Shown piece by piece: positions 34,715 to 45,398 of a stretch of DNA of 52,849 bases; position 1 is the first letter of the stretch; each line of letters starts with the position of its first letter. The stretch spans positions 82,501-135,349 of the forward strand of contig NZ_MQTZ01000028.1 of NCBI RefSeq assembly GCF_001939115.1, in the 5' to 3' direction. This stretch comes from Leptolyngbya sp. 'hensonii' (lineage in GTDB: Bacteria; Cyanobacteriota; Cyanobacteriia; GCF-001939115). The notes under the pieces were generated by a model. It did no database searches, was not told the origin of the DNA, and saw only the letters and a program-made list of their open reading frames with translations. The position numbers were made by a program, and so were the translations under genes.

Positions 34715-35119
34715 GCTGATAATCTCCTCACAATTAAATCTAAGCGATGGGTCATCATGCCCTTGTCGGTGAGGGATAGGGGGGACTCCCATATTCCTGC
34801 CTGATTCCAATGACATTTGCTATAGGTCTAATCTAAACAGTTTGTAGTGGGTTAAAAGAGGACGTTACCGTTTTAGCAACTGCATCTTTCTCGGGGCGAC
34901 AAAATTTTATTGCCCTCATGCTTCCTGATGGTTTTCTGGGCAAATACTTGTCACTCCAAATCAGCAAGTGTTAAATTGCGGCAATCTATTGATAATTTGT
35001 ACTAACAATGGTTTTGAAAATTGCTAAAGAACTGATGGGGTGACAAGTTTAGAGACTTTTAAAAAATATTGAAACACGTCAAGTTCTGTAGGAAATCTGT
35101 GAGGAGGGTGAGCATTGAT
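34715..35119. other. Divergent spacer between SIMPL gene and inverse-autotransporter gene
   Basis: A 405-bp AT-rich spacer. Apart from ribosome binding sites at both ends (GAGGAGA near 34723-34729 on the minus strand and GAGGAGGG at 35101-35108 on the plus strand) I see no gene, RNA or repeat. Confidence 0.5.
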
Positions 35120-37897
35120 ATGACGATCACAAGAGATGGAAGCCGTAATTTTAACTTGCGTGCAAGCCGTAATTTTTTCTCGGAAGTCAAATTGTCAGCC
35201 TTTGGCATGCGCTATCTGGGTTTGCTTGTGCTTGGAATTTTGTCCGCACCAGCGATCGCGCAAACGCCACTTTCCAAGACCAGTCCACCGTACATAGGGG
35301 CAACGACGGCTGGGGCTCAGGCTATAGGTTCGGTCAAGATGACGTCTTCCCTGGCCCTGCGAGAACTCTCCTCGGCGGTGACCCAGGCCACAGGGAAAGG
35401 AACACAGGTTCTGACGCAACAGGTCAGTGCCCAGGATCGGCAGATTGGACCGGAGGACAAGACCGTTCCCGGTCAGTATGATCTTCTGAATCTAACGGTG
35501 AATACTGGCTCACAGGCAACCCTGGACGGGCCAGTATCCAATGCTCAGACGGAATTTCTGCCAGCGCTCACTTTTGCAGTGGGCTATGGGAGTGGTCTGG
35601 TGACCACAGCACCCGGCGCGGCGGAACTGCTGGCTGTCAATGGGCCAACTCTTCCGGATGCTGATGCGGCGGCTCAAGCTGCTATCCTGGCCCAGGCCGA
35701 CTCTGCTGCAGCGCCTACGATCGAGTATCAGCCGCGACTGGGAGCCCGTTACACCAGTGAAGGATCGGGCTATGAGCAGGGCGTTACTAGCTTTGAAGGC
35801 TTTATTCCGATCGCCCAGAGTGCAGGGGAAAGCTTGACCTTTGTCGATGGTCGGCTCTTGCTACAGAATAATTCGGCTCTGGGGGCTAATGTTGTTCTCG
35901 GTCAACGGCTTTACTCCGCTTCAGAAGATCGGATCTATGGGTTCTATGTGGCCTATGACAACCGGGATACGGGTAGGAGCACCTTCAATCAGTTGGGGGT
36001 AGGGGTGGAGACCCTGGCTGAAGGTTTTGATGCTCGGGTGAACGCCTACTTCCCGATCGGAACGACCCGGAATCAGGTTGGTAGTTCGGTGTCAGGCGTT
36101 CGTTTTGTGGGGAATAATCTGGCTCTAACCAGTTCCCGTCAGTTTGAATCGGCGGCCACGGTGGTGGATGCTGAGGTGGGGACGGAAATCTTTCCGATCG
36201 GTGAAGAGGGAACGGTGCGGGGCTATCTGGGCGGATATTATCTCAATGCGCCGGGCAGTCCTGATACCTATGGCGGCAAGGTGCGGGTGGAAGCATTGCC
36301 AACCGATTTTCTCAATCTGGGGCTGATTGTGCAGACGGATGGCCTGTTTGATACTCGGGTCATTTTCAGTGTGGGAGCAACCTTCCCTGGAACGCGACCT
36401 TCCAGTAATGGCCCGATCTCACGGGTTTTGAATCGTATGGCTGGTCCGGTAGCCCGCCAGACCGCAATTGTCGTGGCTGACCCCTCGCGTCGGGGGCAGA
36501 CTGAAAGTGGAACGGACAGTCTGGCGGTTAATGCTCGTACAGGGCAGCTTTACACCTTCCTGCATGTGTCGTCGGGAGCTGGGGGGACTGGAACGGCGGA
36601 GCAGCCCTTTAGTACGGTGCAGCAAGCCTTGAATGCAGCTGGGGCCGGGGGCACAGATGTGATTTATGTGCGGGGCAGTGGCAATGAAGCCCTGGCTAAC
36701 CTCAATCTTCCTGGTGGGACCAGTCTGCTATTCAATAATGTGCAGCAGTTGACCCCTGACCCGATCGCGAACCTCAATAACCAGCGGGCCTTGCTGCCGT
36801 TGTTTGATTCCACCGCCAAATATACGCTGACGATTAATGGGCCGATTACCCTGGCCGGTAATAATTCTCTGTTGGCAGGCATCACGGCGACTCAGACGAT
36901 CACGGTCAGTGGTCAGAACAACACGTTGAGTCAGGTGACGGTGAATAACCCGGCGGGCATTGGGATCAATGTGACAGGGAACAACACCACCATTTCTCAA
37001 TCGACGGTGAATAATGCTGGCGGGGTTGGGATTCAGGCGGCTAATGTGAATGGTCTGACCCTGCAGGGCAATACGGTGACGAACAGCGGTGGGCGAGGGG
37101 TGAGCCTGAATCAGGTGACTGGCCAGGTGACGATCACAAACAACAATGTGAACGGGACAGGCGGGGTTCAGAACAGTGCCCTGGTGATTGAGAACAACTC
37201 CGGGAACGTCAATGCCACCATTACGGGGAACCAACTCCAGAACTCCACCAATAATGGTGCGGCGGTGGATCTGTCGGGAACGGCCACAGGGACGTTTAAT
37301 GTCTCGAACAACACGGTCAGTGGAAACCAGTTCAATGGCATTCTCTTCCAGTTGAGTAATAATGCACAGGCTACGGGAACCATTGCGAACAATATCCTCA
37401 ATAACAATGGCAACAACGCGATTCTGGCCAGAACGCTCAACGCCTCCCAGGGAACAGTCAATATTTTGAATAACACGGTGACGAACACGACTAACCGGGG
37501 AATTGTGGTGGAATCGGCGAATACCTCCCAGATTCAGGCCCTGATTCAGGGAAATACGGTGACGGGGAGTGGGATCGTGGGTCTGTTCCTGCGAGCAGGG
37601 GATACTTCTACGACGCTGGCTGCAGTTCGCCTGAATACATTGACCGGCAATTTTGGTGGGGGTGTTCCCGGCGCTACGGGGGATTTGGCGGCTGAAACGC
37701 TGATCCCGGCGGGTGCGGGCTCCCGGCTCTGTATCTCCAGGGGGGGGAATACGATCGGGCTGTTCACCCTCAATAATCGGGTAGGGAACACGCTGCAGTT
37801 GGAAACAGCTTCCCCTGCAGATGCGATTACCAGTCCAGTGAATAACGGCGGCACGGTGATCACACCAGTGGCCACAGGATTCTGTGGAATTCCCTAA
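35120..37897 (+). CDS. Inverse-autotransporter-like surface protein with beta-helix passenger
   Basis: The 925-residue product (ATG 35120, GAGGAGGG upstream) has a signal peptide with a long N-region, cleaved after APAIA near residue 47. Residues about 200-440 are beta-strand-rich with the layout of intimin/invasin-type inverse autotransporter barrels (ARYTSEGSGYEQG; FEGFIPIAQ; GFYVAYDNRD; GYLGGYYLN; IFSVGATFPG). From about 500 on the protein contains GTAEQPFSTVQQALNAA, the usual opening of a right-handed parallel beta-helix, then many Asn-rich NN.V/GN.V turns typical of pectate-lyase-like coils. It probably anchors in the outer membrane and displays the helix outside. Ligand unknown. The in-frame TTG at 35069 is less likely. 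Confidence 0.78.
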   Translation: MTITRDGSRNFNLRASRNFFSEVKLSAFGMRYLGLLVLGILSAPAIAQTPLSKTSPPYIGATTAGAQAIGSVKMTSSLALRELSSAVTQATGKGTQVLTQQVSAQDRQIGPEDKTVPGQYDLLNLTVNTGSQATLDGPVSNAQTEFLPALTFAVGYGSGLVTTAPGAAELLAVNGPTLPDADAAAQAAILAQADSAAAPTIEYQPRLGARYTSEGSGYEQGVTSFEGFIPIAQSAGESLTFVDGRLLLQNNSALGANVVLGQRLYSASEDRIYGFYVAYDNRDTGRSTFNQLGVGVETLAEGFDARVNAYFPIGTTRNQVGSSVSGVRFVGNNLALTSSRQFESAATVVDAEVGTEIFPIGEEGTVRGYLGGYYLNAPGSPDTYGGKVRVEALPTDFLNLGLIVQTDGLFDTRVIFSVGATFPGTRPSSNGPISRVLNRMAGPVARQTAIVVADPSRRGQTESGTDSLAVNARTGQLYTFLHVSSGAGGTGTAEQPFSTVQQALNAAGAGGTDVIYVRGSGNEALANLNLPGGTSLLFNNVQQLTPDPIANLNNQRALLPLFDSTAKYTLTINGPITLAGNNSLLAGITATQTITVSGQNNTLSQVTVNNPAGIGINVTGNNTTISQSTVNNAGGVGIQAANVNGLTLQGNTVTNSGGRGVSLNQVTGQVTITNNNVNGTGGVQNSALVIENNSGNVNATITGNQLQNSTNNGAAVDLSGTATGTFNVSNNTVSGNQFNGILFQLSNNAQATGTIANNILNNNGNNAILARTLNASQGTVNILNNTVTNTTNRGIVVESANTSQIQALIQGNTVTGSGIVGLFLRAGDTSTTLAAVRLNTLTGNFGGGVPGATGDLAAETLIPAGAGSRLCISRGGNTIGLFTLNNRVGNTLQLETASPADAITSPVNNGGTVITPVATGFCGIP

Positions 37898-37965: not shown

Positions 37966-39852
37966 ATGAGTGGCATTGTGGGTATCCTGAGCCTGAACGG
38001 GGCTCCGATCGCCCCCCCTCTGCTCCAGGCAATGGTTGAGGCTCTGGCCTATCGAGGGCCAGATGCCCAATCTTGTTGGAGTCAAAGTCGAATTGGGCTG
38101 GGGCATACCCTGTTGCGGACCACGCCTGAAGCGGCGGAGCAATATCCCCTCACCCTGGATGGTCAGGTGTGGATGGTGGCGGATGCGCGGATTGATGGCC
38201 GATCGGATCTGATCCGTCGGTTGCAAGCAGCGGGGCAACAGGTGCCTGCGGGGGTTCCGGATGGGGAGCTGATTCTGCGAGCCTATCAAGTTTGGCAACA
38301 GGATTGCCTATCCTACTTGCTGGGAGATTTTGCTTTTGCCATTTGGGATCAGCCTCGCCAGCGATTGTTTTGTGCCAGGGACCATTTTGGGGTGAAGCCC
38401 TTTTACTACGCCTGTAGCCAGGAGTGGTTGATTGTTAGTAATACGCTCAACTGCATTCGAGTACATCCGGCAGTGAGTTCGACTTTTTATGAACCGGCGA
38501 TCGCTGACTTCCTCCTCTCTGGCACCCTGCAGGACCCGGCCACCACCATCTTTGCGGACATTCGGCGGCTTCCAGCGGCCCATGGACTGACCTGGTCGGA
38601 GGGGCAGCTTACCGTACAGCCCTACTGGACGTTGCCACGGGAGGGTTACCTTCGCTATCGCCATCCCATGGATTACGTGGAGCAGTTTCGAGAATTGCTG
38701 GAGCAGGCGGTGAGCGATCGGCTTCGCACGGATCGGGTGGGCCTGTTGATGAGTGGGGGACTGGATTCCTCCTCGATCGCGGCGGTGGCCAAACAGATGC
38801 TTTCCCAGCAGTCTGCTGAGTTTGATCTGCGGGCCTATACGGCGGTTTACGATCAGCTGATTCCCGATCAGGAGCGCTACTATGCCAGTCTGGTGGCGGC
38901 GGCTCTCCAGATCCCAATTCAGTATCAGGTGGGAGAAGCCTATCCCCTCTTCCACCGCTGGGATCAGCCCGAACTTTTCCAGCCGGAACCCCTGCTCAGC
39001 CCGACCCTGGCCCTGACGATCGACCAGTATCGTCAGGTTGCAGCCCACAGCCGGGTGGCTCTGTCTGGGCATGGGGGGGATCCGGTCTTTTTCCCTTCCG
39101 GCACGTATTTTCTGGATCAGTTGCGGGCTGGCCAGATAGGCTCTTTAGTGACTGAAATTGGTCAGTATGTTACCTTGATGGGACGCTTTCCGCCCCTAGG
39201 GATTCGGACGCAACTGCGTCGCTGGCTGGGACCAGCAGGGGAGCCTGCTTTCCCCTATCCAGACTGGCTCCATCCTGACTTTGAAGCGCGGTTGCAACTC
39301 CGGGAGCGCTGGCGAAGTTTAGTCACGCCTGCTACTGGAGAGAAGTCCATTCGCGCTGATGCCTATCGGCTGTTGACAGAGGTGAGTTGGAGTTTTCTGT
39401 TTGAGAGTTTTGATCCTGATCGGACGGGTGTTCCTCTGGAGGTGCGTCATCCTTACTTCGATTTACGGTTGATGGAGTATCTATTGTCCATTCCACCGAT
39501 TCCCTGGTTTATTCACAAGGCGCTGCTGCGGATTGCCATGGGAGAGCTGTTGCCAGAGACCATCTGTAAGCGACCCAAAACCCATTTGGCGGGTGACCCG
39601 ATCGCCGTAATGCTGGAACGCTCCATAGGCCAGAACCTCCCCTCCCTGGAGTTGCCAGCGATTTTAGCGGAATATCTCGACCGAGATCGATTACCCCGTG
39701 TTACTGTAGGCGGAAAGAGTATAGGTCATTGGTGGGTGGATCTTCGTCCTTTAAGTCTCACCCAATGGATTGTCCAACAAAGATCTGTCCAACCAAGATC
39801 AGGGTATACAGGGAGAATTGGATCATTCAGTGATCAAATGTTAGAACATTGA
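37966..39852 (+). CDS. Asparagine-synthase-like lasso cyclase (C protein)
   Basis: The 628-residue protein has an N-terminal glutamine-amidotransferase-like domain and a C-terminal AsnB synthetase domain. True AsnB begins Met-Cys; here the protein begins MSGIVGIL, so the catalytic Cys2 is Ser and glutamine cannot be hydrolysed. The ATP pyrophosphatase loop SGGLDSSSIAA and the later SGHGGDPVF are intact. This combination is characteristic of lasso cyclases, which adenylate an Asp/Glu side chain of the precursor and join it to the new N-terminus. A lasso-type precursor follows 253 bp downstream. The last 25 residues are low complexity and overlap an AT-rich repeat. It could be another amide-forming AsnB relative, but the neighbours favour lasso. 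Confidence 0.88.
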   Translation: MSGIVGILSLNGAPIAPPLLQAMVEALAYRGPDAQSCWSQSRIGLGHTLLRTTPEAAEQYPLTLDGQVWMVADARIDGRSDLIRRLQAAGQQVPAGVPDGELILRAYQVWQQDCLSYLLGDFAFAIWDQPRQRLFCARDHFGVKPFYYACSQEWLIVSNTLNCIRVHPAVSSTFYEPAIADFLLSGTLQDPATTIFADIRRLPAAHGLTWSEGQLTVQPYWTLPREGYLRYRHPMDYVEQFRELLEQAVSDRLRTDRVGLLMSGGLDSSSIAAVAKQMLSQQSAEFDLRAYTAVYDQLIPDQERYYASLVAAALQIPIQYQVGEAYPLFHRWDQPELFQPEPLLSPTLALTIDQYRQVAAHSRVALSGHGGDPVFFPSGTYFLDQLRAGQIGSLVTEIGQYVTLMGRFPPLGIRTQLRRWLGPAGEPAFPYPDWLHPDFEARLQLRERWRSLVTPATGEKSIRADAYRLLTEVSWSFLFESFDPDRTGVPLEVRHPYFDLRLMEYLLSIPPIPWFIHKALLRIAMGELLPETICKRPKTHLAGDPIAVMLERSIGQNLPSLELPAILAEYLDRDRLPRVTVGGKSIGHWWVDLRPLSLTQWIVQQRSVQPRSGYTGRIGSFSDQMLEH

Positions 39853-40025
39853 GTGACAAAATATTAAAGGAGCCCGGATTAAATCATAAGTTATTAGACT
39901 GTAGGGCATTAACCTGATAGAACAGTAACTTTAAAGGAAGGATTAACTTTAATAAATCCTTGCAAGATTGAATCGCGGATTGTCAAAATCTGGATTATTA
40001 GAACATTAGATCACAGAATATTAAA
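39841..40025 (+). repeat. Degenerate 28-bp direct repeat pair upstream of RiPP precursor
   Basis: Copies at 39841-39868 (covering the cyclase stop) and 39998-40025 share about 23 of 28 positions, with the common core TTAGAACATT and AATATTAAA; they are 157 bp apart. The intervening DNA is AT-rich with further TTAGA/GTAG fragments. This could be a regulatory repeat or slippage debris. Confidence 0.6.
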
Positions 40026-40105
40026 CAATGGGGCGTTAGATTGATCGTAGGTCAATTCATTGCAAGACAGTAGATTGTAGATAACCGAGGAGACGTGCAG
40101 TGCTA

Positions 40106-40273
40106 ATGAAGGACATATCTCTCAAGCGGAACTATCAAAGCCCTAAATTATTGGTCTATGGTAGCATTCGTGAATTGACCCAAACCAGTTCGAAGTTTGG
40201 TGGATTGCAAGATACCTGCACTTCTAATCCATTTAAGAGTCAGGCGGGTGGTCCTCCGGCTTGTCCTCCTTAA
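40106..40273 (+). CDS. Lasso-type RiPP precursor peptide
   Basis: A 55-residue ORF. The leader has the lasso motif Y10..P13.L15...G19.....T25, the element bound by lasso recognition domains, and reads YQSPKLLVYGSIRELTQ. After the leader the only acidic residue is Asp36. Ring closure needs Asp/Glu at position 7-9, so the core must start at residue 28, 29 or 30; with Thr27 at the usual -2 site it starts at Ser29, giving an 8-residue ring (29-36) and a 19-residue tail ending in Pro55. Cys38 and Cys53 could form a disulfide. ATG 40106 has GAGGAGA 12 bp upstream; an in-frame GTG at 40100 has better spacing and may be the true start. Neighbours (cyclase, kinase, exporter) support the call. Mature structure is inferred. 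Confidence 0.87.
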   Translation: MKDISLKRNYQSPKLLVYGSIRELTQTSSKFGGLQDTCTSNPFKSQAGGPPACPP

Positions 40274-40309
40274 GATTGATGCGTATCTGGAGAATCAGAT
40301 AACGTTATT

Positions 40310-41248
40310 GTGGTGTTTTGTTATTCGGTCTATGGCCTGTACCTGCAATCCAATCAGCCTGTGCCCGGTCTGGAAGCAGTGCCAGGGGTTCCCAGGGTGG
40401 ATGTGCGGGTGGAGTTGGCACAAAACGCAACAATGGCGATCGAGGCTGTAGAGTTTGCATCCCCGATCAACCAGAATTCTTGGCGATTTAATTACCCCGA
40501 CGGCACAAAATTTATTGTGGATGCAGAAGGCACCGCTATCTGGGCCACCTGGATCAACCCGATGACGCTGGAGGATACCGCTACTTATCTTCTGGGTCCA
40601 ATTTTGGGTTTTCTGCTGCGGTTGCGGGGCGTGATCTGTTTACATGCCAGCGCGGTGGTTATGGGGCAGGGGGTGGCAGTGTTCGTCGGCCCCGCTGGAG
40701 CTGGTAAGTCAACCACGGCGGCTCTCTTTGCCCACCAGGGCGATCCAATTCTTTCCGATGATGTGGTGGCACTCCTGCCTCAGGAAGAGGCTTTTTGGGT
40801 GCAACCGGCCTATCCTTATTTGCGACTCTGGCCCTCTTCCGTGCAGTTGCTTTATGGGGCACCGGATGTGCTACCGCCTTTAACGCCTAACTGGGAGAAG
40901 TGTTATCTGGCCTTGACGCAGACGGACTATCGATTCCAGCAAGATCCTTTGCCCCTGCGTGTGATTTACCTCTTGAGGCCCAGACGGGATGACCTGATGG
41001 CCCCAGAGATTCAACCCGTTGCGGCTGCGGCTGCATTGGTGGATCTGATTGCCAATACCTATGGCAATAGCTTACTCGATAAGCCGATGCGAGCCATGGA
41101 ATTTCAGGGTCTGAGTCGCCTGGTGACCCAGATTCCGGTACGATGCCTGACGGCCCAGGCCGATCCACCTGACCTGTTTCAACTGTGTGATGCAGTCCGG
41201 GCTGATGTGGCTAGCCTGTCTGCTCCAGGATTTAATGTTGAAAGTTGA
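40310..41248 (+). CDS. HPr-kinase-like protein of RiPP cluster
   Basis: A 312-residue protein. LHASAVVM precedes the P-loop GPAGAGKSTTAAL, followed by ILSDDVVAL; this order is that of the HprK C-terminal domain. Small HprK-like kinases occur in paeninodin-type lasso clusters, where they phosphorylate the C-terminal Ser of the precursor. Here the precursor ends in Pro-Pro, so that role does not fit directly and another Ser/Thr or another target must be considered. The start is GTG 40310 (or GTG 40313), 36 bp after the precursor. The gene sits between the precursor and a methyltransferase. Confidence 0.85.
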   Translation: MVFCYSVYGLYLQSNQPVPGLEAVPGVPRVDVRVELAQNATMAIEAVEFASPINQNSWRFNYPDGTKFIVDAEGTAIWATWINPMTLEDTATYLLGPILGFLLRLRGVICLHASAVVMGQGVAVFVGPAGAGKSTTAALFAHQGDPILSDDVVALLPQEEAFWVQPAYPYLRLWPSSVQLLYGAPDVLPPLTPNWEKCYLALTQTDYRFQQDPLPLRVIYLLRPRRDDLMAPEIQPVAAAAALVDLIANTYGNSLLDKPMRAMEFQGLSRLVTQIPVRCLTAQADPPDLFQLCDAVRADVASLSAPGFNVES

Positions 41249-41260
41249 AATGTGAGCTGA

Positions 41261-42403
41261 ATGTATACCATCGCAGGTTACGGGGAAATGATCGCAGACG
41301 AGGGGCGTATGGGCCCTTACGTTCAGGCGTTGCGCCAAACAGTGAAACCGGGATCTGTGGTGCTGGATCTGGGGGCGGGCACCGGCATCTTTGCCTTTCT
41401 GGCCTGCCAAATGGGAGCCGAGCGGGTGTATGCGATCGAGCCAGGGGCCTGTATTCAGGTTGCCCGCCAGATGGCGCAAGCCAATGGCTATGCCGATCGG
41501 ATTGAGTTTATCCAGCAGCTCTCCACGGAGGTGACTCTGCCCCAGCCCGTGGATGTGATTATTTCCGACCTGCGGGGAATTCTGCCTCTATTTCAAACCC
41601 ACATTCCGGCCCTAGCCGATGCCCGTCATCGGTTTCTAGCTCCGGGTGGGGTGCTGATTCCGCAGCAGGACAGGCTCTGGGGTGCGATCGTCACCGCTCC
41701 TGAAGTCTATGACCCGCTGGTGCAGCCCTGGGAGAATCGCTACGGGCTGGACATGAACGCGGCCCGTCAGGTGATCACCCATGCCTGGTACAAGGCGAAC
41801 CTGAACGGGACGCATTGCCTGACGGAGCCCCAGCTTTGGGGAGAACTGGATTACCGGAACCTGGAACAGCCTGATCTGGCTGGCCCCTTAACCTGGACCC
41901 TGACCCGCTCTGGTACGGCCCATGGTCTTTGCCTCTGGTTTGAAACGACCCTGCTGGAAGGGATTGGCTTTTCCAATGCCCCGGATCAGCCGCCCCTGCT
42001 CTATGGTCAAGCTTTCTTTCCCTGGCCAACACCGGTGCAACTGGCGATCGGCGATCGGGTAGAGGTGACCCTGCGGGCGAACCTGGTCCGCAATGACTAC
42101 ATCTGGCGCTGGCAGACGCAGGTGCTGGCGCAGGAGACGGTAACCGCTCAGTTCAATCAGTCCACCTTCCAGAGCCATCCCCTGGCTCTGGCGGAATTGC
42201 ACCTGCAGGCCGACTCCCATCAGCCTGCCCTCAGCCTGAAGGGGCAGGTGATGCACCATATTCTGGGCTGGATGGATGGGGACACGGCCCTGGGAGAGAT
42301 CACCCAAAAGGCCCTGGTTGCCTTTCCAGATTATTTTGCCGCCTGGCAGGACGCCTTTGATCTTGTCGCCCAGGTCTCCCGTCTGTATAGTCGCCCAGCA
42401 TGA
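41261..42403 (+). CDS. PRMT-like SAM-dependent methyltransferase with C-terminal helical domain
   Basis: A 380-residue protein with the PRMT-type layout: an N-terminal helix, SAM motif VLDLGAGTGIFAFLACQMGA (34-53), VYAIEP (56-61), a Rossmann core and a C-terminal beta-barrel-like part. In true arginine methyltransferases two Glu form the double-E loop (SE.........E); here they are Asp103 and Gln112 (ISDLRGILPLFQ), so arginine methylation is doubtful. The last 60 residues (SLKGQVMHHILGWMDGDTAL and following) resemble a small winged-helix/PqqD-like domain, by eye only. It sits between the kinase-like gene and the exporter (ATGA overlap), suggesting that it modifies the precursor or a cluster product. 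Confidence 0.83.
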   Translation: MYTIAGYGEMIADEGRMGPYVQALRQTVKPGSVVLDLGAGTGIFAFLACQMGAERVYAIEPGACIQVARQMAQANGYADRIEFIQQLSTEVTLPQPVDVIISDLRGILPLFQTHIPALADARHRFLAPGGVLIPQQDRLWGAIVTAPEVYDPLVQPWENRYGLDMNAARQVITHAWYKANLNGTHCLTEPQLWGELDYRNLEQPDLAGPLTWTLTRSGTAHGLCLWFETTLLEGIGFSNAPDQPPLLYGQAFFPWPTPVQLAIGDRVEVTLRANLVRNDYIWRWQTQVLAQETVTAQFNQSTFQSHPLALAELHLQADSHQPALSLKGQVMHHILGWMDGDTALGEITQKALVAFPDYFAAWQDAFDLVAQVSRLYSRPA

Positions 42404-44220
42404 GCAATCTTCGTAGTTTCCTGGCCGATAAATTTCAGGCCGTCCTGGCTCAACTGCCCTATTTGCCTCGATCGTTTGCGCTGGTTTGGGCTGCCGCACC
42501 TGCCTGGACGGTTTGCTGGGCCGTGCTCCTGGTGATGCAGGGGCTGCTGCCCGTTGCCATTACCTACCTGAGCCGGATTCTGGTGAATAGCCTGGTGAGT
42601 ACGTTGCAAACCAGGCTGGGTTTGCAACAGACCCTGTTCCTCGTGGCCCTGATGGCCAGTTTAATGTTGCTGGCCGAACTGATGCGGGGGCTGGTTACCT
42701 GGGTGCGGACAGCCCAGGGAGAACTGGTGCGGGACCATATCAGCAATCTGGTGCATCAGCAGGCAGCCCGGGTGGATTTTGCCTTTTATGAATCGGCGGA
42801 GTATTACGATCGCCTCTACCGGGCGCAAAATGATGCCCGGCTGCGCCCCCTGACCCTGCTGGAGAATGGGGGCAGTCTGCTGCAGAATGCCATTACCCTG
42901 ATCGGGCTGGTGCTGGTGCTGTTGCCTTTTGGTCTCTGGCTGCCGATTGTTCTGCTGGTGAGTACTCTGCCTGCGTTTTATGTGGTGCTGCGTTATAGCG
43001 TTAAGCAGCATCGCTGGTGGGTGCGGTCTACCCCGGATGAGCGCCGGAGCTGGTATTACAACTGGCTGTTGACCGATCGATCTAATGCGGCTGAATTGCG
43101 GATTTTTGATCTGGGGGATCATTTCCAAACCACCTATCGGCAGGTTCGGGAAAAACTGCGGCTGGAGCGGTTGCAACTGGCCCGAAACCAGAGCCTGGCT
43201 GAGCTGGGATCTCGGGCTCTGGCCCTGTTGCTGATGGGGGTAACCCTGGCCTGGATGGTCTGGCGGGCGCTGCAGGGCAAAGCTACCCTTGGGGATCTGG
43301 CCCTGTTCTACCAGGCGTTCAGCCAGGGGCAGGAGGTGATGCGCTCCCTGTTACAGAATCTGGGGCAGCTCTACACCAACAGTCTTTTTCTCAGCAGTTT
43401 ATTTGAATTTCTCACCCTGGACCCCCAGGTGGCAGAGCCTGACCAGCCTCGTCCATTGCCCTTGCCCCTGCAGGAGGGGATTCGGTTTCGGGATGTCACT
43501 TTCTCCTATCCGGGGAGTGATCGGCTGACCCTGCAGAATTTTAACTTGTTGTTTCCCGCCAGGAAAATCATTGCTATCGTCGGCAACAATGGCGCTGGGA
43601 AGAGTACCCTGATTAAACTGATCTGTCGCCTTTACGACCCGCAAAAGGGGGCGATCGAGCTAGATGGAATCGATCTGCGGCAGTTTGCCCTCAAAGATTT
43701 GCGTCAAATCATTACAGTCTTATTCCAGGAACCGGTTGAGTACAGTACAACTGCGGCAGAAAACATTGCACTGAGTTCTCTCATGGCGGAACCGAACCGG
43801 TCTGATATTGTGTTGGCGGCAGAAGCAGCCGGAGCGGATGAGCCCATCGTCCGACTGCCAGAAGGATACGACACCCTGTTGGGCAAGTGGTTTGGCGGCG
43901 CTGATCTGAGCACGGGCGAATGGCAGCGGCTGGCTCTGGCCAGGGCCTTTCTGCGGCAGTCGCCGATCGTCATTCTGGACGAGCCGACCAGTGCGATGGA
44001 TTCCTGGGCTGAGGCGGACTGGCTGGATCGCTTTCGTGCGCTGGTTGCTGGCCGGATGGCGATCGTCATTACCCACCGTTTTACGACGGCCATGCGGGCG
44101 GACATGATTCATGTCATGGTGGCAGGCCAGGTGATTGAGTCGGGTCGCCATGAAGACTTGCTGGCTCTGGAGGGTCACTATGCCCAGTCCTGGAAAATGC
44201 AGATGCAGGAAATCAAATGA
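42400..44220 (+). CDS. ABC transporter with fused membrane and ATPase domains, probable RiPP exporter
   Basis: A 606-residue half-transporter: about six membrane segments (residues 25-320) and an ATPase domain with GNNGAGKST, an LSTGEWQRLALARAF signature and IVILDEPTSAMD. No N-terminal C39 peptidase domain is present, so it does not cleave a double-Gly leader. It corresponds to the D protein of lasso clusters, exporting the mature peptide and giving self-protection. It starts at ATG 42400 in the stop of the methyltransferase gene and overlaps the next gene by ATGA. Substrate assignment rests on context. Confidence 0.88.
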   Translation: MSNLRSFLADKFQAVLAQLPYLPRSFALVWAAAPAWTVCWAVLLVMQGLLPVAITYLSRILVNSLVSTLQTRLGLQQTLFLVALMASLMLLAELMRGLVTWVRTAQGELVRDHISNLVHQQAARVDFAFYESAEYYDRLYRAQNDARLRPLTLLENGGSLLQNAITLIGLVLVLLPFGLWLPIVLLVSTLPAFYVVLRYSVKQHRWWVRSTPDERRSWYYNWLLTDRSNAAELRIFDLGDHFQTTYRQVREKLRLERLQLARNQSLAELGSRALALLLMGVTLAWMVWRALQGKATLGDLALFYQAFSQGQEVMRSLLQNLGQLYTNSLFLSSLFEFLTLDPQVAEPDQPRPLPLPLQEGIRFRDVTFSYPGSDRLTLQNFNLLFPARKIIAIVGNNGAGKSTLIKLICRLYDPQKGAIELDGIDLRQFALKDLRQIITVLFQEPVEYSTTAAENIALSSLMAEPNRSDIVLAAEAAGADEPIVRLPEGYDTLLGKWFGGADLSTGEWQRLALARAFLRQSPIVILDEPTSAMDSWAEADWLDRFRALVAGRMAIVITHRFTTAMRADMIHVMVAGQVIESGRHEDLLALEGHYAQSWKMQMQEIK

Positions 44221-45398
44221 TGATGGACGTGTTACCGGCAGCAATTACCTCTGAGGATTCCACCCGGCAGTGGGTGATTCGTTGCCTGCAGGGACGATTG
44301 GCCCCGCAAACCCTGGCCGCCACCCGCTACCTGCTGGCCCAGTCCAATCTGGATTGGAATCGGTTTCTGCAACTGGCCCAGGGAGAAGCGGTGGCCCCCC
44401 TGCTGTTTCAAGCCCTGCGGGGGCAGGCGATCGTCCCTGCCTGGGTGGAGGCTCAATTGGAGGCAGCCTATTACCGGAATGCCTGCCGCAATGCTCTCCT
44501 GCTGCATGAACTGGCTGCTGTTTTGCAGGCCCTGGCTAGGGTGGGGATTGAGGTGATTGTGCTGAAAGGGGTAGCCCTGGCGGAGCTGGTGTATCGGGAT
44601 ATTGGGGTGCGACCCATGAGCGATCTGGACCTGTTGATCCGATCGACCGATGTGGGCCGCGCCCGACACATCCTGGCAGACCTGGGTTACACTCCCCTGG
44701 ACCTGGAGATGCAGGCCGGATATACAGAAGAATTCCGCAATGAGGCCACTTTTGGCAAGCAGGGGCTAACGGAGATTTGTATTGATCTCCACTGGCGGCT
44801 GTTTAGCCCACTCTATTACCAGCGACGGTTGACGGCTGATTGGTTCTGGCAGACCCGGTTGCCGATTCAGATTAATCAGGTGACGGCCTTTGCCTTTGGC
44901 CCAGAAGCCCAATTACTGCATCTGTGCGCCCACCTCTCCCTGCACCACCAGGGAGAGGGGTTACTCTGGCAGCACGATATTGCTGAAGTCCTGCTTTATT
45001 ACCGACAGCAAATTGATTGGACTGTGCTGTTGCAGCAGGCCCGGACTTTTGACCTGGTGCTTTCGCTGCAACAGGTGCTGCTATCGGTGACCCAGAACTG
45101 GGATCTGACCCTGCCACCGGAGGTCTGGCAGGGGTTGCAGGATCTCAGTCCCTCCCCCAGGGAGGTGAGTGTGCTGGGCTGGCTGCGGGCTCCTCATCTG
45201 AGAAGTAGCCTGCGCTGTTTCCTGGCCGACTTATCGGTTGCAGCGGGCTGGCGTGAACGATTGCACCTGATGTGGAATATGCTGTTTCCCACGCGGGCTT
45301 ATATGCAACGCCGCTATCAGATTACCCATCCGCTGCTGATTCCTCTCTACTATACCTATCGGGTGCTGCTGGGCCTGCGGCGAGAATCCAGAGAGTGA
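44217..45398 (+). CDS. Nucleotidyltransferase-fold protein of RiPP cluster (NTP_transf_5-like)
   Basis: The 393-residue protein contains IEVIVLKGVALAELVY and RPMSDLDLLIR, the motif pair of the uncharacterised nucleotidyltransferase family that recurs beside HprK-like kinases in lasso clusters. DLD supplies the metal-binding Asp residues. The C-terminal part is helical (ALLLHELAAVL and similar). Its reaction is unknown; nucleotidylation or glycosylation-linked tailoring of the peptide has been suggested for relatives, but this is not shown. It starts at ATG 44217 in the exporter stop. It is the last gene of the plus-strand cluster and ends 5 bp from the convergent gene. Confidence 0.83.
   Translation: MMMDVLPAAITSEDSTRQWVIRCLQGRLAPQTLAATRYLLAQSNLDWNRFLQLAQGEAVAPLLFQALRGQAIVPAWVEAQLEAAYYRNACRNALLLHELAAVLQALARVGIEVIVLKGVALAELVYRDIGVRPMSDLDLLIRSTDVGRARHILADLGYTPLDLEMQAGYTEEFRNEATFGKQGLTEICIDLHWRLFSPLYYQRRLTADWFWQTRLPIQINQVTAFAFGPEAQLLHLCAHLSLHHQGEGLLWQHDIAEVLLYYRQQIDWTVLLQQARTFDLVLSLQQVLLSVTQNWDLTLPPEVWQGLQDLSPSPREVSVLGWLRAPHLRSSLRCFLADLSVAAGWRERLHLMWNMLFPTRAYMQRRYQITHPLLIPLYYTYRVLLGLRRESRE

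Follow-up and report, generated by a model that had tools for sequence, protein, structure and literature searches.

A PRMT-fold methyltransferase with a degenerate double-E loop in lasso-peptide clusters, and a candidate target in the precursor tail

A gene of Leptolyngbya sp. 'hensonii' encodes a methyltransferase, here called M, that has the fold and SAM site of PRMT enzymes, the protein arginine methyltransferases known from animals, and a remodelled substrate pocket. Relatives of this enzyme are found alongside lasso-peptide genes in eight or more bacterial phyla. It is very probable that M has been reused for lasso-peptide tailoring. We propose, with a probability of about 0.5, that M is a SAM-dependent peptide N-methyltransferase whose target is the tail lysine (or arginine) of the lasso precursor. 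In this proposal M would be an active enzyme that takes the linear precursor as its substrate and prefers Lys over Arg. M is real, conserved and undescribed within the literature and families that were searched: no family in the searched libraries and no retrieved paper describes a lasso-linked PRMT with a degenerate loop, and no paper joining lasso peptides with PRMT was found in the searched literature, a search that most subscription journals lay outside.

The window is the whole stretch of DNA that was analysed, 52,849 nucleotides of contig NZ_MQTZ01000028.1. It contains a lasso operon (37966-45398) with the gene order C-A-K-M-D-N, in which genes overlap or nearly touch. The features of the operon are as follows.

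37966..39852, + strand: lasso cyclase C, asparagine-synthetase type (NF033535, 5.8e-116; Pfam Asn_synthase, 2.1e-32)
40100..40273, + strand: lasso precursor A, 57 aa from the GTG at 40100 (NF033528 lasso_cyano, 1.3e-6; NF033521 leader, 6.9e-4)
40190..40270, + strand: predicted core SKFGGLQDTCTSNPFKSQAGGPPACPP with a putative Ser1-Asp8 ring (sequence)
40235..40240, + strand: codons of Lys16-Ser17, the proposed [K/R][T/S] target motif (motif association)
40310..41248, + strand: HprK-like lasso kinase K (TIGR04352, 1e-8, below the cut-off)
41261..42403, + strand: PRMT-fold methyltransferase M, ATG start, 380 aa (Pfam PRMT_C, 5.5e-13)
41564..41602, + strand: degenerate double-E loop of M, residues 102-114, SDLRGILPLFQTH (alignment)
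41996..42004, + strand: THW loop position of M, here L246-L247-Y248 (alignment)
42212..42400, + strand: three-helix PqqD-like tail of M, residues 318-380 (predicted structure, Pfam, fold comparison)
42400..44220, + strand: ABC exporter D (Pfam ABC_tran, 1.7e-29)
44217..45398, + strand: nucleotidyltransferase-like protein N, NTP_transf_5 (PF14907, 2.3e-56)

The sequence-only reading of this DNA had placed M in a RiPP cluster with lasso genes, and the matches of the cyclase, precursor, kinase, exporter and nucleotidyltransferase confirm the lasso context. The M open reading frame is a real gene, and many syntenic clusters hold a one-to-one homologue of it; its stop overlaps the start of D by 4 bp, as D overlaps N. 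The precursor also has an in-frame ATG at 40106. Its predicted core contains two Cys and no Arg, and the Ser1/Asp8 register agrees with the core SVLQQNSD at a homologous locus (L014). Lys16-Ser17 is 12 residues away from the C-terminus, a greater distance than most homologues show. In the kinase, His112, Lys133, Asp150 and Asp151 are invariant across 13 homologues and correspond to the His-Lys-Asp-Asp catalytic set known from lasso kinases, whose substrate is the linear precursor and whose target is a C-terminal Ser (PMC9266682). Upstream of the operon lies a large repetitive open reading frame (35069-37897, 942 aa, listed with a TTG start) with many Asn/Thr-rich repeats, probably a surface protein.

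The lasso cluster of the window lacks B1 (PqqD-type RRE) and B2 (protease), one or both of which are present in most homologous M clusters. One adjacent B1/B2 pair was detected in the genome, on contig C60 (L023, 7524-8328), and no lasso cyclase was found among the open reading frames surrounding it. Because this pair sits on another contig, maturation of the window's lasso peptide would need B1 and B2 in trans, and it seems to work in this way.

We scanned genomes for homologues of M with a five-sequence alignment as the query, which returned 80 loci, and profiles built from these loci were used to map homologues of C, K, D, N, B1 and B2 around M. In a maximum-likelihood tree of 89 sequences, 58 sequences form a clade (support 100/99) that we call SDLRG; the label is defined by Asp at the position of the first catalytic glutamate (Glu1), which all 58 carry, and the tree independently gives the same 58 rows as a clade. 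Conserved co-occurrence with lasso genes is borne out by 40 of the 58, which have at least two lasso genes nearby. The others comprise a Chloroflexi clade of ten, three M of the Spirulina type encoded alone, and five short or other cases. The lasso-linked members span cyanobacteria, Acidobacteria, Proteobacteria, Chloroflexi, Gemmatimonadota, Myxococcota, Actinomycetota and Spirochaetota, and a kinase was found in nearly all M loci. A kinase search in Gammaproteobacteria found M beside the kinase in one of ten kinase genomes, the query genome G740 (L047). Two relatives inspected from a plasmid search (Pantoea and Tropicibacter) were both in non-lasso contexts. On the Pantoea dispersa plasmid (L262, 5238-10456), the PRMT-like gene is annotated as a ribosomal L11 methyltransferase and lies in a small operon whose other genes encode an iron-containing redox enzyme, a Rieske protein, an MFS transporter and an ATP-grasp protein.

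Twelve further sequences form the SVFTG clade (100/100), which has Val or Ala at Glu1 and retains Glu2 and HW. With support that is not strong (83/88), this clade joins sequences that keep both glutamates (Glu-Glu) and not the SDLRG clade, suggesting that Glu1 was lost on two separate occasions. SVFTG constitutes a second lasso-linked PRMT subtype (L073, L074, L079, L081, L083, L086, L088, L089, L095, L097, L098), and several of its precursors end in ...RRPCL, ...RHPCG or ...KKPC, others having no basic residue. Outside the tree, kinase or lasso loci L209, L214 and L223 carry other variants of the double-E loop (CDHVG, TDGAG and SDQMG).

M certainly has a PRMT fold, with a SAM domain and a barrel. 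The AlphaFold2 model, built with 52 homologues, has a pLDDT of 96.2, and its best matches among solved structures are PRMTs: PRMT8 (Z 35.2, rmsd 1.9 A over 302 residues) and PRMT1 (also Z 35). By sequence, M matched solved structures of PRMT2, PRMT6, PRMT1 and PRMT8, from 1.6e-30. The SAM motifs are intact, with VLDLGAGTG as motif I and E60 as the acidic post-I residue, so that the fold and motifs are those the sequence-only reading had recognised. Across the SDLRG clade, 57 of the 58 rows retain R16, D36, G38 and G42, and the remaining row has a gap there; G40 is present in 53 of 57 rows and position 60 is E or D.

The substrate side of the pocket has diverged. The PRMT2 loop SEWMGTCLLFE aligns on SDLRGILPLFQ of M (S102 to Q112), which deviates from the pattern SExMGxxLxxE and places Asp103 at Glu1 and Gln112 at Glu2, the assignment made from the letters alone. 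Two further changes add to that assignment: the Met of the PRMT loop is Arg105, and the THW position reads LLY in M and (V/I/L)Y over the clade. The YFxxY motif of type I enzymes is missing from the N-terminus, which reads MYTIAGYGEM. Asp103 is invariant (58/58) and Arg105 nearly so (53/58); the Glu2 position is free, with G in 24 sequences, Q in 16, E in 8 and other residues in the rest. An invariant Asp103 speaks for re-use rather than decay.

A candidate substrate is suggested by the precursor tails. Precursors were located with a leader pattern that ignores the C-terminus, and the final lists were picked by eye. The control set consisted of cyanobacterial, acidobacterial and gammaproteobacterial loci that have the kinase without an SDLRG-type M, two of its precursors having been added by the gammaproteobacterial kinase search. 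The motif [K/R][T/S] occurs within the last 7 residues at 26 of 37 SDLRG-M loci against 0 of 27 control loci (Fisher 1.7e-9, a value that overstates the evidence since the loci share descent). Within the last 12 residues, the setting at which the precursor of the window counts as positive, the figures are 27/37 and 2/27. Shuffled tails gave 4.1 expected occurrences against 28 observed among 41 peptides, a number never reached in 5000 shuffles, and shared descent again makes such p-values too small. Of these 41 tails, 25 have Lys only and two Arg only. The association has exceptions: the motif is missing from the last 7 residues at 11 of the 37 loci, the last 8 residues lack any basic side chain at several of them (L036, L064, L070, L212, L080), and an acidobacterial locus is the one clear counter-example to the link, its precursor ending in ...GPKTRGSGTA in a genome without M (L210, genome G488). 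Moreover, M and the kinase subtype vary together, so that [K/R][T/S] could be a motif of the kinase.

Two further groups of loci bear on the tail. M is encoded on its own in Spirulina sp. CS-785/01, Spirulina sp. CCY15215 and cyanobacterium SBLK. A kinase alignment used as the query gave a strong match in all three genomes, in regions that hold C-A-K without M and whose precursors end in ...MDVVPNKTN, ...MNAVPNKTN and ...APVTPNKTN. Since M lies elsewhere in these genomes, it is tied to the motif independently of gene neighbourhood. The Arg-rich protein encoded beside the lone M of these three Spirulina-like genomes was dropped as evidence: it is a DUF3172 protein in the two tested, its Arg content is modest, and we take its presence to be a coincidence. 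The second group consists of three acidobacterial loci (L207, L208, L213) whose lasso-cluster PRMT retains both glutamates (SETIGNYGAEE) and has the same kind of tail. In all five precursors of this lineage, the last 8 residues contain Arg and no Lys (...NRLSR, ...RASR, ...NRFSR, ...NASR, ...NRVSR). The pairing of Glu-Glu with Arg and of SDLRG with Lys, drawn from one Glu-Glu lineage in three genomes, fits a pocket of M that reads the basic residue.

From knowledge of these families and the association above, we propose the following chemistry. The guanidinium pocket of PRMTs would have been rebuilt in M by the change of Glu1 to Asp103, the loss of Glu2, the replacement of Met by Arg105 and that of THW by (L/V/I)Y. 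M would then methylate a side-chain nitrogen of the basic tail residue, usually Lys and sometimes Arg, on the linear precursor, and before or after this step the HprK-like kinase K would phosphorylate the adjoining Ser or Thr. In the window, Lys16-Ser17 would be the joint target of both enzymes. Leader removal and ring closure by B1/B2 and C would follow, and D would export the mature lasso peptide as the last step.

The ten M of the Chloroflexi clade (L046, L049, L050, L053, L054, L056, L057, L058, L059, L065) all lie directly downstream of a gene for a small Arg-rich membrane protein. The N-terminus of this neighbour is rich in Arg (15-18 per 30 residues), and the protein also has a hydrophobic segment and, at its C-terminus, a SHOCT domain, which comes from a domain search on one of the ten. 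One genome of this clade (G390) gave no match to the lasso kinase. As the group is nested within the SDLRG clade (support 100/100, within a branch at 98/89), its position in the tree marks it as a derived lineage that appears to have left lasso clusters. Its neighbour supports a basic side chain as the substrate, here Arg, and being Arg-rich rather than Lys-rich it weakens the case for Lys specificity. The earlier idea of a repurposed PRMT that tailors a peptide is supported by the tail-motif association; this type of enzyme is not exclusive to lasso clusters, outside which the Chloroflexi clade lies.

Less probable, yet the best placed of the alternatives, is that M tailors the lasso peptide elsewhere, at the C-terminal carboxylate, a phosphate made by the kinase or a ring residue, with the kinase reading [K/R][T/S] and Arg105 binding an anionic group. 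Lasso C-terminal O-methyltransferases do exist (LasF/StspM; PMC9266682, PMC8498205), an Arg conserved in 53 of 58 sequences is odd for a cation pocket, and the kinase accompanies M nearly everywhere. However, the distance from motif to C-terminus varies (NKT, DKTA, NKTGYNM, FKS...12), unlike what a carboxylate target would lead one to expect, and kinases without M show the motif in 0 of 27 loci. In addition, enzymes of the StspM type come from a different fold family (PMC9266682), and the nested Chloroflexi clade adjoins an Arg-rich protein.

It is rather unlikely that M is a true arginine methyltransferase whose substrate is an Arg of the leader or some other protein of the cell, with an indirect link to lasso peptides. 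Such a role would suit the PRMT fold, the poly-Arg proteins beside the Chloroflexi clade and the Arg residues of the window's leader (KRNYQ, IREL). However, the arginine-gripping glutamates and the His of THW are gone in the SDLRG clade, the window core offers no Arg, and this reading would leave the close association with lasso clusters and with the tail motif unexplained. Finally, it is very improbable that M is catalytically dead and serves as a scaffold, or as a prozyme like TbPRMT1-PRO: loss of double-E and THW does mark that dead trypanosome protein (PMC12925635) and M otherwise retains the fold, but the family preserves the SAM motifs (D36, G38 and G42 wherever a row has letters), Asp103 is a new invariant residue, and the search for an active PRMT partner found none, the genome of the window giving a single match to M.

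The C-terminal tail of M had been read as possibly RRE-like. What stands is a three-helix PqqD-like domain, similar to the helical part of PqqD (Z 6.4 over 51 residues) and of lasso B1 (Z 5.2); many unrelated folds score nearly as high. Pfam PqqD matches 13 of 45 M tails (best 3e-4), and a profile of the tail showed no significant match to a lasso B1 profile (3.9%). A full RRE is a winged helix with a leader-binding beta-sheet; the predicted tail consists of helices only and so falls short of a complete RRE, and together with the profile comparison this led us to reject a full RRE. The Pfam and fold matches leave a weak link to PqqD. Moreover, 7 of 40 lasso-linked SDLRG sequences have no full tail in the alignment (two of them, L072 and L082, are incomplete sequences), and the tail is dispensable.

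A broader scenario is possible but tentative: a PRMT inside lasso clusters may have been rebuilt into a peptide lysine N-methyltransferase by losing its double-E/THW grip, with Glu-Glu lineages modifying Arg tails, a derived clade moving to a poly-Arg membrane protein, and the kinase adding a phosphate to yield a methyl-Lys/phospho-Thr tail. If our proposal is true, lasso peptides would gain Lys/Arg side-chain methylation as a tailoring step, and the substrate choice of PRMTs could be tested on small peptides, since the Glu/Glu, Asp/x and Val/Glu loops of natural enzymes would each have their own predicted substrate. An SDLRG-type PRMT beside a lasso kinase also provides a handle for genome mining. 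The lasso modifications listed in a 2022 review are disulfide formation, phosphorylation, C-terminal methylation, acetylation, hydroxylation, epimerisation, citrullination and succinimide formation (PMC9266682); Lys/Arg side-chain methylation is absent from that list.

M can be compared with several known systems. PqqD and the lasso B1 RRE (3g2b, 6jx3) resemble the tail of M in their helical half; unlike them, this tail has no beta-sheet and is absent in some lasso-linked M. The lasso clusters of paeninodin and pseudomycoidin share the HprK-like kinase with the window, and that of pseudomycoidin also the nucleotidyltransferase N, but the review describes no M for them and their kinase target is a C-terminal Ser (PMC9266682). 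PIMT-type enzymes (cellulonodin-2, lihuanodin; aspartimide) are, like M, lasso-tailoring methyltransferases; PIMT homologues act on Asp (PMC9266682), whereas M matches PRMT and not PIMT models. StspM/LasF are likewise SAM-dependent methyltransferases of lasso clusters and probably, like M, use the linear precursor; unlike M, they target the C-terminal carboxylate and were modelled on mitomycin 7-O-methyltransferase (PMC9266682), a distinction that we draw from their description. The prozyme TbPRMT1-PRO, described together with the PRMT motifs as an inactive protein without double-E and THW (6dnz, PMC12925635), resembles M in its PRMT fold and these losses, and the chains of the enzyme-prozyme complex match M by sequence and structure; M differs in retaining the SAM motifs and in having its own invariant Asp103 and, in most members, Arg105. 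With the type I enzymes PRMT1, PRMT2, PRMT6 and PRMT8, M shares the Rossmann SAM domain, the PRMT_C barrel, motifs I, post-I, II and III and the N-terminal Arg (R16). In contrast to these enzymes, M has no double-E loop, THW or recognisable YFxxY, carries an additional three-helix tail, and is bacterial and linked to lasso peptides.
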